A DNA stretch of 32,575 nt from a virus. Of the stretch, positions 206 through 21,075 are shown piece by piece. The stretch spans positions 1 to 32,575 of the IMG/VR virus record IMGVR_UViG_3300021959_000209, one strand, 5' to 3'. The position numbers and the translations under genes are program-made. The notes under the pieces are model-generated. The model saw nothing but the letters and a program-made list of their open reading frames with translations. It had not been told where the DNA came from and ran no database searches. The first letter of the stretch is position 1, and every line of letters starts with the position of its first letter.

Positions 206-1423
206 ATGGCGTTTCAAAATTCTGATAACAGAAGAAAGCCTAGTGCTGATCTATTAAAGTATTGCACTACAGAAAGACAAAGAAACATCCTTGAGCTGTG
301 GATAGAACTAGGAACAAGTAAGGCTGTTGCCAATCACTTAGATATAAGTGAAACATCAGTAAGAAGAATAAAGTCTACAATCTTAGGTGTAGCTGCTAGG
401 CAAGGCTATACAGAAACATTTGACGCAACAAGGTTTGTAGACCCAGGACAGGTCGTTGTTGGCAAGTCTACATATACAAAAGATGACGAAGGCAATCCTG
501 TCTGGATTAAAACAAAGGCAGAGATTGAAGATCAAAGAAGGGCTTTTTTTGATTTTATTGAAGGTCTATTACCACAGGTAGATCCAGTAAAGCCAAAAAA
601 GGCAGAGAACAAGAAACTTAATAAAGACATCATGCCAGCCATCTTTATCGGAGATGCTCATATAGGCATGAGGGCAGATGGATCTGAGACTAGGGATAGG
701 TCTTTTGATTCGCGAATAGCAAAGGAAGAAATCTGTGTAGCCATATCAGACCTAGTTTCTGTGGCTCCAGAAGCCGATACAGGGCTTTTAGTGAATGTTG
801 GTGACTTTGTTCATGCCAATAATTCAAATGCCACTACGGGCAAGGGAACGCCTCTGGATGTGGATACAAGATACGAGAAGTTCATGCGTATCGCGGCTGA
901 GACATTGGTCTACTCTATAGACACAATGCTGACAAAGTTCAAGAACGTACAGGTTGTCATTGCTAGAGGAAACCATGATCCTGATGCAGCCATAGCCCTA
1001 CAGATGATCTTAGAGTTTTATTACTCTAAAGAGCCGAGGGTTAATGTATTAAGGTCAAAGGGCTTCTTCCACTACTTAAGGTTTGGTAAGTGGTTAATCG
1101 GAGTCCATCACGGTGACAAGGTTAAGGCACAGAAACTGGCATCTATCATGCCAAGAGATATGCCGGATGCCTGGGCAGAGACAACACATAGAATGTGGGC
1201 TGTAGGACATTTCCATCATGCCCACGAACTTGAATGTGATAACTCAGTTATCGTTAAGAAGTTTGGCACTTTAGCCCCGCCAGATGCGTGGCACTCCAGT
1301 CAGGGATATGGTTCTTCTCACGTCATGGAGATGATTGTGTTTAAACGGGATGGTGGAAAGATGCTTTCTTACACCTATGAAATTCCTAAAGAGCATAAAG
1401 GCGTGGATGTTGAAATACTATGA
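206..1423 (+). CDS. Metallophosphoesterase with N-terminal helix-turn-helix
   Basis: A 405-residue protein with two parts. Residues about 22-60 look like a helix-turn-helix (TERQRNILELWIELGTSKAV followed by ANHLDISETSVRRIKS), so the protein probably contacts DNA. From about residue 145 it carries the calcineurin-like metallophosphoesterase motifs in order: GDAHIG (149-154), GDFVHA (199-204), RGNHD (254-258), GVHHGD (299-304) and GHFHHAH (334-340). These residues bind the two catalytic metals in SbcD/Mre11-type nucleases and related phosphatases. Phages often carry this architecture among late or lysis genes. The substrate is unknown, and a DNA end-processing or repair nuclease is an inference. 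It overlaps the next gene by 4 bases (ATGA), so translation is probably coupled. Confidence 0.85.
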   Translation: MAFQNSDNRRKPSADLLKYCTTERQRNILELWIELGTSKAVANHLDISETSVRRIKSTILGVAARQGYTETFDATRFVDPGQVVVGKSTYTKDDEGNPVWIKTKAEIEDQRRAFFDFIEGLLPQVDPVKPKKAENKKLNKDIMPAIFIGDAHIGMRADGSETRDRSFDSRIAKEEICVAISDLVSVAPEADTGLLVNVGDFVHANNSNATTGKGTPLDVDTRYEKFMRIAAETLVYSIDTMLTKFKNVQVVIARGNHDPDAAIALQMILEFYYSKEPRVNVLRSKGFFHYLRFGKWLIGVHHGDKVKAQKLASIMPRDMPDAWAETTHRMWAVGHFHHAHELECDNSVIVKKFGTLAPPDAWHSSQGYGSSHVMEMIVFKRDGGKMLSYTYEIPKEHKGVDVEIL

Positions 1424-8291: not shown

Positions 8292-10787
8292 ATGGCAGAG
8301 CAAACAATTAAAGCTACAGAAGACGAACTTCGTAGGATTCAAGAACAACTTCGCAAAAACAAAGAATTGTCTGATTCTGAAACTCAGGCTCAACAAATTC
8401 CTATTAATCAGAGCATTCCTGCTAGTGTTTTTGAAGAAAATATAATTGAGCAGACTCCAATTACACAAGATAACTGGTGGCAAGAGGACTCAAGCAATTT
8501 ATATAGAAATGTATTTCAGGACATTATAACAGACACAATTACTTTTGGCTTATCAGAAGAAGCATCCTCTGGAATGTTGTCTTTTATTGATAAGATTAAA
8601 GATATTGCAAATGGCGGTAATACTCCTTATTCCGATTTTTATAGACAAAATGTAAGCAATCTTGAAAATCAAAGATTGGCTTGGCAGCAAGAAAACCCAC
8701 TTGCTACTACTGCTGCAACAATTATTGGAATCGGAGGGTCATTGGGGCAAGCTCCAAAAACAGCTCAATCAGTGTTATCGCGCATACCTGGTGCGTCTAA
8801 TGTTATTTCTAAAATATCGCCAAGAATTGCACAAGTTACAGAGATGGCTGCCCCTGTGACACAAAAAATATCTGCAATTACACCACAAGCTGTAAAAACA
8901 CTTGTTTCTGGCGCTCCACAGGCTGCTGCTTATGGTGGATTGGCTGGTCTTGGATATTCATTACAAGGAGAGGATGCAGAACAGGCCGCTTTTGATGGAG
9001 CAAAAACAGCTATTTTGCTAAACACAGCATTCAGGGGTCTTGGTACTAGCATTTCTGCATTGTCAAAAAGAAGAGTTGAAAGAGAGCTTGGAAAAGGAAA
9101 AGATTTTGTCCCTCTTATAGCTGCTGGTGATTCCGGTTTAGCAAAAATATATAACTCTATTACTAAAAATCTTCCTATAGCTGGAGGAAGAATTCAGTCT
9201 CAATTAGAAAATTTTAAAAAGCCGTTAATTACTGAAAAAGATAAATTGTTTGCAGAAATACAAGAAAGAACCGGAATTAGTCAATTAAAAAGCATAAACA
9301 ATTACGTTGAAAAGATTAACACAAGACTTAAAGGAACTTCTGAATCAATAAAAAACAAGACTACAAAGGGCATAAAACTAGACCCAGAAAAAGAACTTGA
9401 AATACAAAGAAGGTATCAAACAGTAGAATCTGCCAGGTCAAATGTTGTTCAGGCAATACTTAATACCAAAGAAAAACTATTTAGGACAAATATAGTAAAA
9501 TCATCTGCGACAAAAAATCTTAATTCTGACGATCTAGATACTTTTGATAAAATTATTGGGGAAGGCAAAATACAAAAAGCAATATCTTTTCTTGAAAATA
9601 CATGGGCAGAAAAAGGTTTTGGAGTAATTAAAAATAGAAATTTTACTATTGATATTGACGAATTCATTAACTCAATAAACAGAAGAATTGGAGATTCTGC
9701 TGAAAGTTTTGCCCTGTTATATGGCGATAGAAAAATTAATTTTGGTTCAACAATAGAGTCTTTCTTGGAAGGAAAATTGGTAGGAAATACAATTACTGGA
9801 AAAGCAATATCTGACTTAAGAACAAAATATTCAAGAGAAGTGCGAAATCTTATTAATCAAGGTGGCGAGTCCGCACAAAGAGGATTTGTTCTTAAAAATG
9901 TTCTTGATGAAATTACTGATTCTATTGAAAAACAACTGCCACAAGCAGAAAAAAAACTATTTGAAGAAGAAAGGAAAGCATGGAGAGTTTATGTAAATCT
10001 TCTTGATGCTACTGCTTCAGCTAGCACTAAAGGCGGGGCAAGAGGCGCTTTCACTGAAGATCAATGGCTTCAAGCATTAAAAAGAAACCAGCCAAAATAT
10101 CATGTTAAGGGGCAGGGCGATTTTCAGGGTGCAGCAGACAGTTTGTCTGATGTAAGAGATAGAGTTGGCAATATTAGTAACAAAATAGCGCAGAACACAA
10201 AACAAAGAATGAGTATTGCCTTAAATCTTGAAAAGCAAAAGGTTAAGGAATCTCTTGCTAATGCTATAACAAATCCTACTGGAACAGAGATAGAAAATGC
10301 CAGATTAATGGAATCCTATACGGATACATTAAGAAAAATTGATGAAATTGATGTTCTGTTAAAATCTGGAAATCCAACAGTTTCTAATTGGGTTGGAAGT
10401 ATGTTAGCTACTACTGGTATACTTTTTGGCGGCTCAGGAAGTATCATCAGCGGAGGCTTGATTGCTGGCATGATTGGCTCACAGGGATTTCAAAGATTTT
10501 TGGCTGGTCAAACTGCTGCACAAAAAGCCGTATCTGATATAGCATCTAAAGCATCTACTGCTTTGGGAAAAGGCGCTGCTGTTGTTTCAGGGCAAGCGCA
10601 AGCTGGTGGTTTAGAAAAAACAACTCCACTAGAGTATAGAGCCATAGCAAATAGTAAAAATAATCAGGCAAAGGCTTTGGCATTTAAAAGAGTGCTTGAG
10701 TTAGGGCAAGAAGATAAGTTAAAAAGAACAAACAGAGATGCTTATACGAAATTAAAATCAGCATACGAATCTGTTTATTCACGATAA
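8292..10787 (+). CDS. Large putative ejection/internal virion protein with hydrophobic C-terminal segment
   Basis: An 831-residue protein and the last gene of the rightward block. A hydrophobic stretch is visible near residues 185-245 (TTAATIIGIGGSLGQAPKT onward), charged helical coiled-coil regions fill residues 250-670, and a glycine-rich hydrophobic segment near the C-terminus (SMLATTGILFGGSGSIISGG, then LIAGMIGSQ) could cross or insert into a membrane. No lysozyme or transglycosylase motif is seen. In podoviruses the largest ejection protein sits at this place and forms part of a channel across the envelope. The gene is clearly richer in AT-ending codons than the tail genes before it. Confidence 0.6.
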   Translation: MAEQTIKATEDELRRIQEQLRKNKELSDSETQAQQIPINQSIPASVFEENIIEQTPITQDNWWQEDSSNLYRNVFQDIITDTITFGLSEEASSGMLSFIDKIKDIANGGNTPYSDFYRQNVSNLENQRLAWQQENPLATTAATIIGIGGSLGQAPKTAQSVLSRIPGASNVISKISPRIAQVTEMAAPVTQKISAITPQAVKTLVSGAPQAAAYGGLAGLGYSLQGEDAEQAAFDGAKTAILLNTAFRGLGTSISALSKRRVERELGKGKDFVPLIAAGDSGLAKIYNSITKNLPIAGGRIQSQLENFKKPLITEKDKLFAEIQERTGISQLKSINNYVEKINTRLKGTSESIKNKTTKGIKLDPEKELEIQRRYQTVESARSNVVQAILNTKEKLFRTNIVKSSATKNLNSDDLDTFDKIIGEGKIQKAISFLENTWAEKGFGVIKNRNFTIDIDEFINSINRRIGDSAESFALLYGDRKINFGSTIESFLEGKLVGNTITGKAISDLRTKYSREVRNLINQGGESAQRGFVLKNVLDEITDSIEKQLPQAEKKLFEEERKAWRVYVNLLDATASASTKGGARGAFTEDQWLQALKRNQPKYHVKGQGDFQGAADSLSDVRDRVGNISNKIAQNTKQRMSIALNLEKQKVKESLANAITNPTGTEIENARLMESYTDTLRKIDEIDVLLKSGNPTVSNWVGSMLATTGILFGGSGSIISGGLIAGMIGSQGFQRFLAGQTAAQKAVSDIASKASTALGKGAAVVSGQAQAGGLEKTTPLEYRAIANSKNNQAKALAFKRVLELGQEDKLKRTNRDAYTKLKSAYESVYSR

Positions 10788-10802
10788 ACAATCGAGGCAG
10801 TG

Positions 10803-10837
10803 CAGCACTCCATGTTTTCCTCCTTGAGGGGGTGCTG
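10803..10837. terminator. Hairpin between converging gene blocks, possible bidirectional terminator
   Basis: The 58-base gap between the end of the rightward block (10787) and the end of the leftward operon (10846) contains arms CAGCACTCC (10803-10811) and GGGGTGCTG (10829-10837). They pair over 9 positions, one of them a wobble, around a 17-nt loop. No strong T-tract follows on either strand, so classic rho-independent termination is uncertain, but the location is right for stopping both transcripts. Confidence 0.45.
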
Positions 10838-10845
10838 TGCTGACC

Positions 10846-11091
10846 TCACCCCATCTCCTTATGGGTTTCATCCTCAATAAGCATATCAATATAGTGCTTG
10901 GCCTTACGGAGATCGTCTATACCACCCTTGTTTTTCCATCTCGATATATACTTAACCACGTTGGCTTCACAGTAACCCAGCTTGTTAGCCAGGATATAAT
11001 CAACAGGCTGTATCGCCATGTTCTTGTAGTGATTACCGCCAACCTGCATATCTTTGACTGATCTTTCCTTAGTGGAGGCTGTGTTCTTCAC
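10846..11091 (-). CDS. DUF3310 (T7 gp1.7-like) protein
   Basis: The core VGGNHYKNMAIQPVDYILAN, then GYCEANVVKYISRWKNKGG and DDLRKAKHYIDML, is the DUF3310 signature, a family that includes the T7 gp1.7 nucleotide kinase. The activity here is not proven. I chose the GTG at 11091 because AAGGAG lies 6 bases before it. A longer frame reaches 11145 but overlaps the upstream gene by 77 bases and lacks this site. The gene is the last of the leftward operon, overlaps its upstream neighbour by 23 bases and ends just before the convergent hairpin. About 81 residues. Confidence 0.8.
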   Translation of the reverse strand: MKNTASTKERSVKDMQVGGNHYKNMAIQPVDYILANKLGYCEANVVKYISRWKNKGGIDDLRKAKHYIDMLIEDETHKEMG

Positions 11092-11293
11092 CTGTTTCTC
11101 CTTGCGTATACGCAACAAACTTATCCAGCTCATCTTCGTGGTCATTAAAGAAAGCTCCTACCATATGGACAAAGTGCATTAGACTGAACACGGCTCTCTT
11201 GGTTTCATCATCCAGCTTAGATGCGTTCTCAAACAGCCATTCATCTACCTCGTCAGGGTGCATCAGGCTCAGGTATTCGTATTTGATTTTCAT
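11069..11293 (-). CDS. Small acidic protein of unknown function
   Basis: A 74-residue acidic, helical protein (MHPDEVDEWLFENASKLDDE, AFFNDHEDELDKFV) with no family I recognise. It starts inside an ATGA overlap with ninG and overlaps the DUF3310 gene downstream, so it is translated as part of the coupled leftward operon. Its high content of Asp and Glu (over a quarter of residues) is the only distinctive character. Confidence 0.6.
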   Translation of the reverse strand: MKIKYEYLSLMHPDEVDEWLFENASKLDDETKRAVFSLMHFVHMVGAFFNDHEDELDKFVAYTQGETGEEHSLH

Positions 11294-11712
11294 AGCTGCG
11301 ATTCCATTTCTTTGTTTTGTTTCTTTAAATCCTTGAGAGTGTGTTCAAGGTCAGCACGATAGAACTTCACAGGCTTCTTGGATTGAATCAGAAGATCATC
11401 ACAGAACTCAGAGCCATACATTTCTCTCATGTACTTACTGTACTTCTCCCTGACCTCTGTCCTGTGCTTCATACCGTACTGGTTACATCCTTTGCACTGA
11501 GGATGAATGTTCTCTTCCAGGATCTTCGTGGCTTGTCTGCCACGTTCTATCCAGTGTCCACCCTGCATATCCTTCCAGTGGAACCATTTATTACAGGATA
11601 CGCACTCAATGAATCCTCGTTTATCCGCAGCAATAGCAGCCTTTAGCCTGACGTGCTTCTGTAGAGCTGTGGCTATCTCGTCAATCAATCTCTTCATTGA
11701 TTTAATTTTCAT
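11290..11712 (-). CDS. ninG: NinG-like (Rap) recombination nuclease
   Basis: A 140-residue protein with the NinG pattern: a basic helical start, CVSC (37-40), GGHWIERG (51-58), a NIHPQCKGCN block (69-77) and then KYSKYMREMYG. The four cysteines form the zinc site and the HW...H region lies in the nuclease-like core. In lambda the NinG/Rap protein resolves Holliday junctions and branched DNA during Red recombination. Its presence downstream of an exonuclease and an annealing-protein candidate makes a functional recombination set. It is coupled to both neighbours by ATGA overlaps. Confidence 0.85.
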   Translation of the reverse strand: MKIKSMKRLIDEIATALQKHVRLKAAIAADKRGFIECVSCNKWFHWKDMQGGHWIERGRQATKILEENIHPQCKGCNQYGMKHRTEVREKYSKYMREMYGSEFCDDLLIQSKKPVKFYRADLEHTLKDLKKQNKEMESQL

Positions 11713-11987
11713 GGTATAAGGTCTGCTTTCTTCATAATCCCGTTACGGGCCAAAACAGTCTTGTCTATATCCTCTGCCGCAGTCAGTAGTGCAACAAGCT
11801 CCTGCGCCGTTGTACAGTCTTTGGCTAGGCGATCTCGGATGTATTGCAAACATTGTCCTAATCTTGAGAAATATGCTTTTTTGTATTGTGTTTTTTGCTC
11901 CCCAGTTTTTCTGTCCTGGCTTATGTAGGGATACTTGATTACCCATCCCTCGCGGTATGGCTCTAAAATAATTCCATTGATGTCCAT
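11709..11987 (-). CDS. Small phage protein of unknown function
   Basis: About 92 residues. The layout, a short beta-rich start (GIILEPYREGWVIKYPYISQ), a charged loop, an aromatic strand KKAYFSRLGQCLQYIRDRLA and a helical end, is common in small phage early proteins, but no function is known to me. ATG at 11987 is chosen over GTG at 11990 because GGAG lies 7 bases before the ATG. It overlaps ninG by 4 bases. Confidence 0.6.
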   Translation of the reverse strand: MDINGIILEPYREGWVIKYPYISQDRKTGEQKTQYKKAYFSRLGQCLQYIRDRLAKDCTTAQELVALLTAAEDIDKTVLARNGIMKKADLIP

Positions 11988-12017
11988 CACGCCTCTCCAT
12001 AATGATGACTCGCCACG

Positions 12018-12395
12018 TTAATCATCTGACTCATCCTTGTCACCAACCTTCATTACTTTAATCTTCTGACCATCAGCCATGTATCTTTTCTCGTTAAAGA
12101 CTATTTCTTTTATAGTCCCGACATGACGATATTTAACAATATCAGAACTCTTTATATCAGGACATTCCCTTCTTACAAAGCTGGCAAGAAGACTGAACTG
12201 GTGGAGTTTCTTATTCCCATCAAGGAAGAACTCTTGGAACTGAACCTTCTTATATGTCTTTTTGTTTAGCATTACCCATCTGTTATGTGCTTCAGAGGTG
12301 TCATGTCTAGGGACAACACTACCAAAGTCAATGCCAAAGAAGGTTCTGCCTCCATCAGCTCCTGTCCTGGCTCTAACCTTGTAGTCTGCCATCAT
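12018..12395 (-). CDS. Protein of unknown function
   Basis: A 125-residue protein, beta-rich, with the stretch GGRTFFGIDFGSVVPRHDTS and an acidic C-terminus (KVGDKDESDD). It is not a family I recognise. Two adjacent ATG codons (12395 and 12392) are possible starts. GGAG is 4 bases before the first and 7 before the second, so the second may be the real one. The gene overlaps the preceding gene by about 20 bases. The 30-base gap after it is the only real break between coding regions in this part of the operon. Confidence 0.6.
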   Translation of the reverse strand: MMADYKVRARTGADGGRTFFGIDFGSVVPRHDTSEAHNRWVMLNKKTYKKVQFQEFFLDGNKKLHQFSLLASFVRRECPDIKSSDIVKYRHVGTIKEIVFNEKRYMADGQKIKVMKVGDKDESDD

Positions 12396-12579
12396 CGTTC
12401 TCCGACTCCTCAGAAAGGTATTTCACATAAGGCTTAACGAACTCGTGATAGAACTCCACCTGTAAAGCAACAAGCCTTGTGTAGGTTTCCTTTGCTTCTT
12501 CTTTACTGATATGTTCGAGACCAATCTCAATCTGGTCTTTAGCAATATGTGTAATCTCTACCAGCTCTTTTGTAATCAT
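12373..12579 (-). CDS. Small helical protein of unknown function
   Basis: About 68 residues, helical (ITHIAKDQIEIGLEHISKEE, ARLVALQ-type helix, FYHEFVKPYVKYL), acidic at the end. It is unrecognised. I chose ATG 12579 because it forms an ATGA overlap with the upstream stop and has GGAGAAGG just before it. The frame could start six codons earlier, but that would give a longer overlap. Confidence 0.6.
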   Translation of the reverse strand: MITKELVEITHIAKDQIEIGLEHISKEEAKETYTRLVALQVEFYHEFVKPYVKYLSEESENDDGRLQG

Positions 12580-12755
12580 ACCTTCTCCAGAGGACATATC
12601 ACTGGGAAGTCATGGATGACGGAGATTTCTTTCGGCTCCCCGTGAGTCTCAATGAATTTCCCACAATACTTCCGATAAGGATTATGCTCATCCTTGAGCT
12701 GATGGATACATTCATGGCAGTTATTCAGATATGTTAGATCGTTTAGTTTTCTCAT
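12576..12755 (-). CDS. Small cysteine-containing (putative zinc-binding) protein
   Basis: About 59 residues with four cysteines in the arrangement CHEC, then KYCGKF, then VICPLEKV. The spacing suggests a small zinc-binding knuckle rather than secretion, as there is no signal peptide. Function unknown. Two ATG codons follow the Shine-Dalgarno GGAGG; only the second (12755) has usable spacing (4 bases), so I start there. It lies between two ATGA/near-overlap junctions of the leftward operon. Confidence 0.6.
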   Translation of the reverse strand: MRKLNDLTYLNNCHECIHQLKDEHNPYRKYCGKFIETHGEPKEISVIHDFPVICPLEKV

Positions 12756-13234
12756 CATGCCTCCAGATACTTGCTCAGTTCTGCATATTCTCCTTTGGCC
12801 TCAAGTATCAGACCACGTTCTGCCCAGTACATCTGCATCCAATCAAGGAAGAATGTCATCTCTCCCTTGTCCCACCTAGAGGAACTGGTTACTTCCACCT
12901 TCACCTCGTGAGTCTCAGGATGCTCTATGTGCCTTAACAGATACTTCTGTTTGGTTGATTGATAGCACAACAGCTTCATATATCTGTTCATGCCTTCAAT
13001 GTGTTGATCTGCCAGGCTCTTCTCATCCTTTTCATAAGCATGGGAAGCAGCCTTTCTGATCCAGATAGCTTTCAAGGCTTTCTGTGGCAGTGAAGACAGG
13101 GTAAAGTCTTCTACCTGCATGGAGTAGGGAGAAAAGGCTACCGAGAGGTAGCCATGCTTTTCCAGTTCTCCTTTAGCTTCTACGAAGATTTCTCTTAACT
13201 CTTCGATGTTTCTAGCTGTTCTAGTTTTCGGCAT
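12755..13234 (-). CDS. Early protein of unknown function, possibly replication or recombination related
   Basis: About 159 residues. The sequence (VAFSPYSMQVEDFTLSSLPQ, KALKAIWIRKAASHAYEKDE, FFLDWMQMYWAERGLIL) has a helical core with several conserved-looking Trp residues and lies among recombination genes. It vaguely recalls NinB-type proteins, but I see no proof. ATG 13234 is chosen because AGGTGA lies 7 bases before it. The frame continues upstream to 13267 without such a site. The start overlaps the end of the XRE-type gene by about 40 bases. Confidence 0.6.
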   Translation of the reverse strand: MPKTRTARNIEELREIFVEAKGELEKHGYLSVAFSPYSMQVEDFTLSSLPQKALKAIWIRKAASHAYEKDEKSLADQHIEGMNRYMKLLCYQSTKQKYLLRHIEHPETHEVKVEVTSSSRWDKGEMTFFLDWMQMYWAERGLILEAKGEYAELSKYLEA

Positions 13235-19143: not shown

Positions 19144-19403
19144 AGTTTATCCTCAGCTTTAATCTCAACAGCTTTGCTTATCAGCTTTATAGTACCTGTT
19201 TCACGTTTCGCCACGCCGCCCACATTGTATTGCTGTCGATTTGCACCGGTGCGCGACGCATATCCCTTGTTGCCGTTGCCGCCGACATCAATGACCTCGA
19301 TGACACGAGCGCGAGCGGGTGTAATTTGTTCGACGCGAGCGGTAACTAGCTCGTTGCGCCACCCAGCAGGCGTGAATACAGATGCGTTGTATTTAATAAT
19401 CAT
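19140..19403 (-). CDS. Small protein of unknown function
   Basis: About 87 residues. Starting at MIIKYNASVFTPAGWRNELV it has a beta-rich part (TARVEQITPARARVIEVIDV) and a Gly/Asn-rich loop (GGNGNKGYASRTGANRQQYN). I reject the longer frame that begins at 19544 because it runs through the preceding gene. ATG 19403 shares a base with the preceding stop (TAATG) and has GGAGG 7 bases upstream. Function unknown. Confidence 0.65.
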   Translation of the reverse strand: MIIKYNASVFTPAGWRNELVTARVEQITPARARVIEVIDVGGNGNKGYASRTGANRQQYNVGGVAKRETGTIKLISKAVEIKAEDKL

Positions 19404-19717
19404 TATGCCGCCTCCCGTTGTGTCAAGGCATCTTGACAGGCGCAGACCAGCGTCCAGTAAGCAACGACTACGGCGTGTTCCCTGATGTTGTAAAAGGTTC
19501 GGCCCATGTCTTCGAGCATAGCCTCGCCACCTGATGTATCGCACTCGGCGCAGAGTTTCAGCGCCTTATAGGTGTAGATTACCCACTCGTGACCATCGCA
19601 GGATTGATGTATAAGGTCTTGAATGTCGTCTCCTTCTTGCGCGTTTGTAAGAATGTCTGCAACGATGCTCGCGGCCTCTTGACGCAACAGGTAATCGTTA
19701 ATAATAAACTCGCTCAT
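19403..19717 (-). CDS. Conserved-looking phage protein behind hammerhead ribozyme C
   Basis: About 104 residues. Motifs such as HEWVIYTYKALKLCAECDTS and GGEAMLEDMGRTFYNIREHA occur in a family of small phage proteins of unknown function. ATG 19717 is chosen because GAGG lies 8 bases before it and because it is exactly 28 nt downstream of the predicted cleavage site of ribozyme C (19745/19746). The frame runs upstream to 19744, inside the ribozyme 3' part, which is not plausible as coding. Its stop shares a base with the next start (TAATG). Confidence 0.7.
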   Translation of the reverse strand: MSEFIINDYLLRQEAASIVADILTNAQEGDDIQDLIHQSCDGHEWVIYTYKALKLCAECDTSGGEAMLEDMGRTFYNIREHAVVVAYWTLVCACQDALTQREAA

Positions 19718-19735
19718 TGTGTTTTCCTCTTTTTT

Positions 19736-19798
19736 GGTTATCACAGACTCCCGAAAGGGAGTTTCGACGGGTTACCACCCCGCTCTCTTCAGTGTGAG
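19736..19798 (-). ncRNA. Type I hammerhead self-cleaving ribozyme, copy C
   Basis: Read on the minus strand. Stem I arms are TCACA (5') and TGTGA (3'). The core is CTGAAGA, then stem II (GA, bulged G, CGGG pairing with CCCGTC, loop GTGGTAA), GAAA, stem III (CTCCC/GGGAG, loop TTTC), and the cleavage triplet GTC. Cleavage is predicted after 19746, leaving 19745 as the new 5' end, 28 nt before ATG 19717. The stop codon TGA of the upstream gene (19789-19791) is inside the CTGA of the core. All conserved hammerhead core nucleotides are present. Confidence 0.93.
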
Positions 19799-20004
19799 AA
19801 TTTGTTAGTATCTGCCGCCCAGTCCTGAACATAAAAACAGGTCTTTGAGCTTGCCTCGATTGCTGCTGCTGCCTTTACCAGCTCCGACTGGCTCTTAATT
19901 TCTCCGGCAATAATCCAGCAATGCAAAGTTGCCATTTTGTATTGCTGCGAATTGAATAGAGCAGCGTCAAAGCCCTGTAATGCTTGCGGGTCAAAGTCTT
20001 GCAT
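19789..20004 (-). CDS. Small protein between hammerhead ribozymes B and C
   Basis: A 71-residue protein: MQDFDPQALQGFDAALFNSQ, QYKMATLHCWIIAGEIKSQS, ELVKAAAAIEASSKTCFYVQ, then DWAADTNKFSH. It is unrecognised, helical, with two cysteines. ATG 20004 has AGAGGG at a fixed place in the 28-nt leader left by ribozyme B. A nine-codon extension upstream would enter the ribozyme. The last two residues (SH) and the stop TGA are encoded by the 5' arm and catalytic core of ribozyme C, so ribosomes finishing this gene run over that ribozyme. Confidence 0.7.
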   Translation of the reverse strand: MQDFDPQALQGFDAALFNSQQYKMATLHCWIIAGEIKSQSELVKAAAAIEASSKTCFYVQDWAADTNKFSH

Positions 20005-20022
20005 GGTGTTTCCCTCTGTTTT

Positions 20023-20084
20023 GGTTATCACAGACTCCCCGCAGGGAGTTTCGGCTAGTTACCGGCTAGCCTCGTCAGTGTGAG
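20023..20084 (-). ncRNA. Type I hammerhead self-cleaving ribozyme, copy B
   Basis: Read on the minus strand. Stem I is TCACA/TGTGA. The core is CTGACGA, then stem II (GGCTAG/CTAGCC, six pairs, loop CCGGTAA), GAAA, stem III (CTCCC/GGGAG, loop TGCG) and GTC. Cleavage is predicted after 20033, so the downstream RNA begins at 20032, exactly 28 nt before ATG 20004. The upstream gene's stop TGA (20075-20077) is within the CTGA of the core. Compared with copy C, stem II is entirely different in sequence but still pairs. Confidence 0.95.
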
Positions 20085-20233
20085 TTATTAATTGTCGCCT
20101 GCTCAATTATTTCAATTTGCACGTCGTCATATCCTTCTGCGATGAAGTCTCCCGCGCAACTCTCAGCGAGTGCCTGATCTTCGAAGTAATCAGCGACTCC
20201 GCCTACCCAAACTGCATATAATGTATTTTGCAT
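20075..20233 (-). CDS. Small acidic protein ending inside ribozyme B
   Basis: A 52-residue protein: MQNTLYAVWVGGVADYFEDQ, ALAESCAGDFIAEGYDDVQI, EIIEQATINNSH. The WVGG...YF...GYDDVQIE pattern is common in small phage proteins of unknown function. The leader contains AGAGGG before the A-rich stretch and ATG 20233. Its last codons and stop are part of ribozyme B, as in the next gene downstream. Its leader has no full hammerhead, only a short hairpin (GCGCC/GGCGC) in the 41-base gap after the preceding gene. Confidence 0.7.
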   Translation of the reverse strand: MQNTLYAVWVGGVADYFEDQALAESCAGDFIAEGYDDVQIEIIEQATINNSH

Positions 20234-20274
20234 TTTTTTATCCCTCTATTGTGCGCCGTCAGTGGCGCGAATTG

Positions 20275-20376
20275 TCACAGGCCTAGTAGTGCTATTGCGC
20301 CAAGTAGCACGGCTGAAAGCGCCATTATCATTAGTGTTGCTATTGCTGCTTGCGTGCTATTGTCAAGGTACTTCAT
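20275..20376 (-). CDS. 33-residue membrane peptide behind ribozyme A
   Basis: Read directly: MKYLDNSTQAAIATLMIMAL then SAVLLGAIALLGL. It is a polar N-terminus followed by one membrane helix to the C-terminus. ATG 20376 has the strong site AGGAGG and lies exactly 28 nt after the predicted ribozyme A cleavage. No family recognised. Tiny single-pass peptides of this kind in phage early regions often act on host membrane enzymes, but the target cannot be named. Confidence 0.65.
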   Translation of the reverse strand: MKYLDNSTQAAIATLMIMALSAVLLGAIALLGL

Positions 20377-20394
20377 GCCGTCAACCTCCTATTT

Positions 20395-20454
20395 GGTTTT
20401 CACAGACCCCTTGCGGGGTTTCGGCTAGTCACCAACCAGCCTCGTCAGTGTGAG
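20395..20454 (-). ncRNA. Type I hammerhead self-cleaving ribozyme, copy A
   Basis: Read on the minus strand. Stem I is TCACA/TGTGA. The core is CTGACGA, then stem II (GGCTGG/CTAGCC with one G-U pair, loop TTGGTGA), GAAA, stem III (CCCC/GGGG with the GNRA loop GCAA) and GTC. Cleavage is predicted after 20405, so the downstream RNA begins at 20404, 28 nt before ATG 20376. The upstream gene stops with TAA (20455-20457) just before the ribozyme, not within it. The G-U pair shows that the minus strand is the RNA sense. Confidence 0.95.
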
Positions 20455-20772
20455 TTACGCGACTAATAATTGATGGATATCTAAACCGTCCCAAATCAAG
20501 CCGTCTTCTTTCAGACTTTCTATAGCTTCTTTTTTAGTTTGAAATCCCATGCAATCGCCGCCGTCAAACTCAACCGCATCACCTTCCGGCGTATGTATAA
20601 TTTTCGGCAAACAAATCCTCCACTGGCAACGAACTGGCGTGCTGCCAGAATAAGCAGCGTTATAGTTTTGAATCTCGCACTGCATAACCGGCTTTATATT
20701 CTCACGATCAATAACAGTACAATGATAAGCACCAAAACCTGCTTTTTTTACGCTAACCTCATATCTGCTCAT
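20455..20772 (-). CDS. First gene of the leftward operon, function unknown
   Basis: About 105 residues: MSRYEVSVKKAGFGAYHCTV, QCEIQNYNAAYSGSTPVRCQ, WRICLPKIIHTPEGDAVEFD, GGDCMGFQTKKEAIESLKED. Beta-rich with several cysteines. I do not recognise it. I choose ATG 20772, which lies about 28 nt after the predicted transcription start; the longer frame to 20862 reaches past the promoter. Its Shine-Dalgarno (AGAGAG) is weak. It ends just before ribozyme A. Confidence 0.65.
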   Translation of the reverse strand: MSRYEVSVKKAGFGAYHCTVIDRENIKPVMQCEIQNYNAAYSGSTPVRCQWRICLPKIIHTPEGDAVEFDGGDCMGFQTKKEAIESLKEDGLIWDGLDIHQLLVA

Positions 20773-20807
20773 TATGCTTATGCTCTCTGTGTGTTGTTGA
20801 TGGTGTG

Positions 20808-20964: not shown

Positions 20965-20984
20965 CCCATTCAGATTCACGCACA

Positions 20985-21051
20985 CGGCATTCTAGCCACA
21001 CGCCATTCCGGACAATATGGCATTTCAGCCAGGGATATGGCATTTCGGCCA
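20985..21051. repeat. Four palindromic sites of type TGGC-N6-GCCA
   Basis: Sites start at 20985 (CGGCATTCTAGCCA), 21001 (CGCCATTCCGGACA, degenerate), 21018 (TGGCATTTCAGCCA) and 21038 (TGGCATTTCGGCCA). Spacings are 16, 17 and 20 bp. They continue the nearly 17-bp rhythm of the array at 20903-20964 but with a different sequence, so two proteins could bind side by side. Candidate binders are the XRE regulator (13195-13413) or host factors. Confidence 0.65.
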
Positions 21052-21075
21052 GGATCGAGCGAGCGTTCGGTAGGT

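Follow-up and report, generated by a model that had tools for sequence, protein, structure and literature searches.

The window, by which we mean the whole stretch of DNA analysed, is a virus record of 32,575 bases whose genes include those for a large terminase subunit, a portal, a major head protein, a RecE-like exonuclease, a primosomal protein and a primase/helicase. The structural genes run rightward from 21,720, and a leftward operon, which starts near 20,800, extends through the replication genes. The first gene of this operon, with a promoter-like site ahead of it, codes for a protein without Pfam or PHROG match. No terminator-like sites were found on the minus strand between 19300 and 21720, hence none between the ribozymes described below. 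On the minus strand, 20970-21060 is occupied by short, imperfect direct repeats (TGGCCGAAATGCCATAT-like) that lie immediately ahead of the leftward operon. Direct repeats of this sort also occur in contigs L113 (260-335) and L130 (80-135), with another repeat sequence in L130; they are possibly operator or origin iterons.

Three type I hammerhead motifs, hereafter called A, B and C, are located between small genes on the minus strand of this operon (Table 1), as the earlier note had proposed; its coordinates and predicted RNA 5' ends (19745, 20032 and 20404) match our predicted cut sites exactly. Each motif harbours, in order, stem I (TCACA/TGTGA), CTGANGA, a capped stem II, GAA with A15.1...U16.1, a capped stem III and C17. 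The complete core, i.e. C3U4G5A6N7G8A9, G12A13A14, the A15.1-U16.1 pair and H17, is present in the three copies and in the 15 homologues presented below. Stems II and III are capped and stem I is open, which is the type I layout. The bulged A in stem II of copy C recurs in the homologues from L069, L169 and L171. A core-plus-TCTGTGA pattern was found three times in the window and never in 100 shuffles, and a structural scanner gave five hits in 600 shuffled windows (0.008 per window), none of them with compact stems. A chance origin of the three motifs is excluded. We found neither a fourth type I copy nor any type II or type III copy in the window. A GC-rich hairpin (GCGCC...GGCGC) at 20240-20275 on the minus strand precedes the 52-aa gene, at a junction without ribozyme; it is repeat-like but devoid of the core, and was not counted.

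Table 1. Features of the leftward operon in the window and hammerheads of other contigs.
Feature	Position	Strand	Remarks
Promoter-like site	20835-20808		Leftward operon start; 9/12 matches, TG before second hexamer
First gene of leftward operon, 105 aa (MSRYEVSV...)	20455..20772	-	TAA stop just ahead of stem I of A
Hammerhead A, type I	20400..20453	-	Complete core; stems I/II/III 5/8/5 bp; homologues and covariation
Predicted cut A	20405 (C17) / 20404	-	
Leader ACCA after A	20394..20397	-	Predicted pseudoknot with loop II UGGU (UUGGU/ACCAA, 5 bp)
33-aa putative membrane peptide gene	20275..20376	-	ATG 28 nt past cut A
52-aa gene	20075..20233	-	Stop is UGA in core of B
Hammerhead B, type I	20028..20083	-	Complete core; stems I/II/III 5/6/7 bp; RAGATH-1-hammerhead E 5e-5, below gathering score
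Predicted cut B	20033 (C17) / 20032	-	
Leader ACCA after B	20022..20025	-	Predicted pseudoknot GGU/ACC, 3 bp, weakest in family
71-aa gene	19789..20004	-	ATG 28 nt past cut B; stop is core UGA of C
Hammerhead C, type I	19741..19797	-	Complete core; one bulged A in stem II
Predicted cut C	19746 (C17) / 19745	-	
Leader ACCA after C	19735..19738	-	Predicted pseudoknot UGGU/ACCA, 4 bp
104-aa gene (MSEFIINDY...)	19403..19717	-	ATG 28 nt past cut C
L213 type II hammerhead	9306-9361	-	Rfam RF02276; precedes homologue of 104-aa gene
L213 type I hammerhead	8879-8934	-	Next junction of same operon
L174 (also L217) mixed array of type III, type I and type I	2073-2127, 1789-1841, 1004-1056	-	33.5-kb contig
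L005 array, six type I	8690-13234	-	66.6-kb viral contig unrelated to window
L220 (Roseobacter phage CRP-7, MK613349.1) type II hammerhead	570-633		Before gp02

At its gathering thresholds, Rfam reported no hammerhead in the window. The earlier note had called for an Infernal comparison with the Rfam hammerhead models. In E-value mode, the RAGATH-1-hammerhead model (RF03152) gave B a significant score of 39.9 bits (E 5e-5), with C at 22.8 bits (E 0.31) and A at 17.2 bits (E 5.4), but none of the three reaches the gathering score of 56.3 bits. The lack of a significant hit in any copy, which the note had named as grounds for giving up the assignment, is not what we observed, since B has one. 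A and C are candidate ribozymes on the strength of their core, their homologues and the covariation. JPX_2 and the other non-hammerhead Rfam matches obtained in E-value mode are at chance level.

The window copies share with RAGATH-1-hammerhead the type I layout, a GAAACUCCC...GGGAGUC stem III and a U-rich/A-rich neighbourhood, and they differ from it by a longer stem II, the UGGU loop and the leader ACCA. Their catalytic core and three-way junction are the same as those of Hammerhead_1, Hammerhead_II and Hammerhead_3 (RF00163, RF02276 and RF00008), and the Hammerhead_1 model lists no window copy. Types II and III, which are circular permutations, accompany type I copies in L213 (type II) and L174 (type III).

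To collect homologues, we scanned IMG/VR twice, using patterns derived from the window copies, and then applied a structural filter. Because a wide core pattern yielded mostly chance matches in viral contigs, only hits with all three stems paired were kept. In this way, 14 contigs were found to contain a total of 15 additional type I hammerheads built like those of the window. In genome contigs, three matches included one full hammerhead (L179) and no array, and the many loose matches there were regarded as background. All 18 family members are missed by Rfam at the curated cut-offs, RAGATH-1-hammerhead being the nearest model; across 17 loci, the Rfam gathering thresholds recovered a single type II hammerhead and no type I copy. 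The members form a well-defined type I subfamily missed by Rfam cut-offs. It follows that hammerhead arrays in phage genomes are probably undercounted.

The core is invariant in the alignment of all 18 members (A1). In the three stems and the pseudoknot, 96.8% of the cells are standard pairs, a percentage inflated for the members that were found by the second pattern, which required TGTGNWAACCA, and by a scanner that required paired stems. Sliding the partner by one to three columns lowers pairing to 30-40%. Both sides have changed in 10 of the 19 pairs (33 cells, against a shuffle mean of 7.5), so that covariation supports the three helices, even though pairing as such was partly helped by the selection of hits with paired stems. 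Loop II UGGU together with ACCA directly after stem I is found in 16 of the 18 members, and a loop II/leader pseudoknot of at least 4 bp is predicted in 17. One L174 copy has both sides of the pseudoknot changed together, with UGGAU facing AUCCA (5 bp). The compensatory changes are free of the bias due to the ACCA requirement, as are the sets found without it, namely the window copies and the first-scan homologues. Pseudoknots that align stems I and II are described in about 40% of natural hammerheads, with faster cleavage at low magnesium, by Perreault et al. (PMC3088659).

Every window ribozyme fills a gene junction, with the upstream stop codon at or inside the ribozyme, and the distance between cut and ATG is the same in all three cases. 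Within the family, an ORF starts 23-36 nt past the cut in 18 of 18 members, with a purine-rich ribosome-binding site in between, and in nearly all of them the upstream gene ends on the core or at most 24 nt before it (-24 to +1); no such gene end was found near the core in L113. The core UGA doubles as the upstream stop in B, C, L069, one L174 copy, one L077 copy and two L175 copies. This junction placement is the same in unrelated viral contigs. From stem I to the ATG, the window cassettes are 72-82% alike, and in the 60-base flanks to either side the likeness falls to a background of ~50%; the copied unit is the cassette and not the genes. With at least two hammerheads on the same strand flanking genes of one transcription unit, the locus belongs to the phage hammerhead clusters.

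Such clusters have precedents. Perreault et al. (2011) describe same-strand clusters in prophages, where hammerheads of types I, II and III surround phage genes, and propose that they process long transcripts into operon- or gene-length units (PMC3088659). The view in the earlier note that no operon was known to be cut by several hammerheads therefore does not hold: phage arrays of this sort have been on record since 2011 (PMC3088659), we found further ones of two to six copies, and the window array is of a known kind. As in those clusters, several same-strand hammerheads flank single genes or short blocks in a phage. Compared with the text consulted in that paper (PMC3088659), the window differs by three near-identical type I copies in an early operon, the fixed 28-nt leader and the core UGA used as a stop. 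A 2023 paper states that self-cleaving ribozymes are enriched in the vicinity of other such ribozymes and that they also lie close to Mu-like phage genes, and calls the reason for these associations unknown (PMC10085705). A search of open-access papers returned no later work on phage hammerhead arrays.

We consider it likely that A, B and C are functional type I hammerheads that cut the leftward early transcript at three consecutive junctions. By comparison, a similar triple array, that of Agrobacterium tumefaciens, cleaves in vitro and in vivo according to Perreault et al. (PMC3088659). We count against this reading the three pairs of the B pseudoknot, the Rfam scores below cut-offs and the 5-bp stem I left open in B and C by MFE folding, which ignores hammerhead tertiary contacts. 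The simplest reading of the array is probably that the early leftward mRNA processes itself, giving rise to separate messages. The RNAs released would carry the first gene, the 33-aa and 52-aa genes, the 71-aa gene, and the 104-aa gene with the replication genes, respectively. In each ribozyme, the end of the upstream gene would supply the 5' strand of stem I, and the leader of the next gene its 3' strand together with ACCA, whose pairing with loop II would align stems I and II. Each ribozyme would fold during transcription once the ACCA strand has emerged, and then cut. The upstream message would end with stems II and III as two 3' hairpins and a 2',3'-cyclic phosphate, and the downstream message would start with a 5' hydroxyl and a 28-nt leader containing the ribosome-binding site. 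These ends, i.e. the 5' hydroxyl, the cyclic phosphate and the hairpins, might have a stabilising role.

RNase III cuts the early polycistronic mRNA of phage T7 at gene junctions, with hairpins remaining at the 3' ends. The benefit of self-processing might be similar, with the stability and dosage of the cistrons uncoupled from each other. In T7 a host protein makes the cut, whereas in the window the RNA itself would make it, producing 5' hydroxyl and 2',3'-cyclic phosphate ends. The predicted accessibility of the ribosome-binding site is about equal in cut and uncut RNA, which argues for the cutting as such; as accessibility hardly changes, we set aside as unlikely the idea that cleavage unmasks this site.

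The search for homologous arrays suggested in the earlier note was fruitful. Six type I copies are present in L005 and in L056, two contigs of nearly identical DNA; L175/L218 have four and L077 has two. In the stretches compared, none of these contigs has translated-level similarity to the window. L174/L217 combine a type III and two type I hammerheads at nearby junctions. BLAST analysis of 1.2 kb around the window array gave nothing among named phages. An 80-base search pointed to the cultured Roseobacter phage CRP-7, which we rejected as an array because the matching stretch corresponds to the stem III portion of just one type II hammerhead. In that phage, the annotated start of gp02 (619) falls within the core of the ribozyme, and downstream of the ribozyme there is a more convincing ATG with a ribosome-binding site.

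Among relatives, a given gene may or may not be accompanied by a ribozyme. One precedes the 104-aa gene downstream of C in the window and in L069, but the homologues in L113, L126 and L127 do without. Likewise, L211, L128 and L124 lack a ribozyme ahead of the gene that follows one in L169 and L209, and the gene behind the L216 ribozyme has none in L127, L128, L169, L171 and L209; its L128 and L209 homologues keep the same ribosome-binding site sequence, gagggtaagcaaatg, without the ribozyme. Since most junctions in relatives lack a ribozyme, processing there is not essential. In L213, a type II hammerhead stands ahead of a homologue of the 104-aa gene (34% identity over 64 residues, E 2e-8). 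That another type is used there, when the window and L069 have type I before this gene, suggests that a cut is being selected for. What the hammerhead types have in common is the cut, and which product keeps which hairpins differs between them. Their gain, loss and swap among relatives suggest that the 3' hairpins matter less than the act of cutting. The protection of 3' ends by two hairpins put forward in the earlier note is thus possible for the upstream products of type I copies, but it is weakened as a general purpose because the type II and type III ribozymes at comparable junctions of relatives leave different 3' ends. A more tentative reading, to which we give perhaps one chance in a few, is that of an interchangeable 'cut here' cassette, whose types would be added, lost and swapped at the same junctions under selection for the cut (a 5' hydroxyl leader and separated cistrons) and for no particular hairpin, with ribosomes at the core UGA possibly tuning it. 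The family provides a clean set for the question of what hammerheads do in phages, with genes that occur in related phages both behind a ribozyme and on their own, exact stop-to-ribosome-binding-site placement and one homologue served by another hammerhead type.

The same variation, with presence or absence at one gene and the ribosome-binding site kept, would also be expected of a neutral or selfish intergenic hitch-hiker, a cassette that copies itself between junctions and persists since cutting does little harm. The likeness of the cassettes between flanks at background level is in its favour. We nevertheless regard it as unlikely, given that core and pseudoknot are kept in 18 of 18 members, that the stems show compensatory changes and that the type II ribozyme of L213 argues for selection of the cut. 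Slightly less likely again is a switch gated by ribosomes, in which those finishing the upstream gene would cover the core, so that heavy translation would keep the cistrons joined and idle mRNA would be cut. The seven copies in which the core UGA is the upstream stop would suit such a switch, as would most of the others, with a stop directly before stem I. However, a stop within the core may merely reuse CUGA in a compact genome, a ribozyme can in principle fold ahead of the trailing ribosome, and the stop position varies from -39 to +1. Lastly, hammerheads can ligate and neighbouring same-strand copies would give compatible ends, but spliced or circular RNAs made from the segments between them are highly improbable, as these segments are ordinary coding genes and such products were sought and not detected by Perreault et al. 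(PMC3088659).

In L113 (640-741), a short leader ORF begins with the ATG at 640 and keeps its frame across the ribozyme and on into the gene downstream. A cut there would part the leader start codon from the gene, and the arrangement may be due to chance. The genes behind the ribozymes in L113 (741-1019) and L176 (763-1041) match Pfam PF24229, the Staphylococcus phage terminal repeat-encoded protein TreK, and may therefore act in the early takeover of the host.
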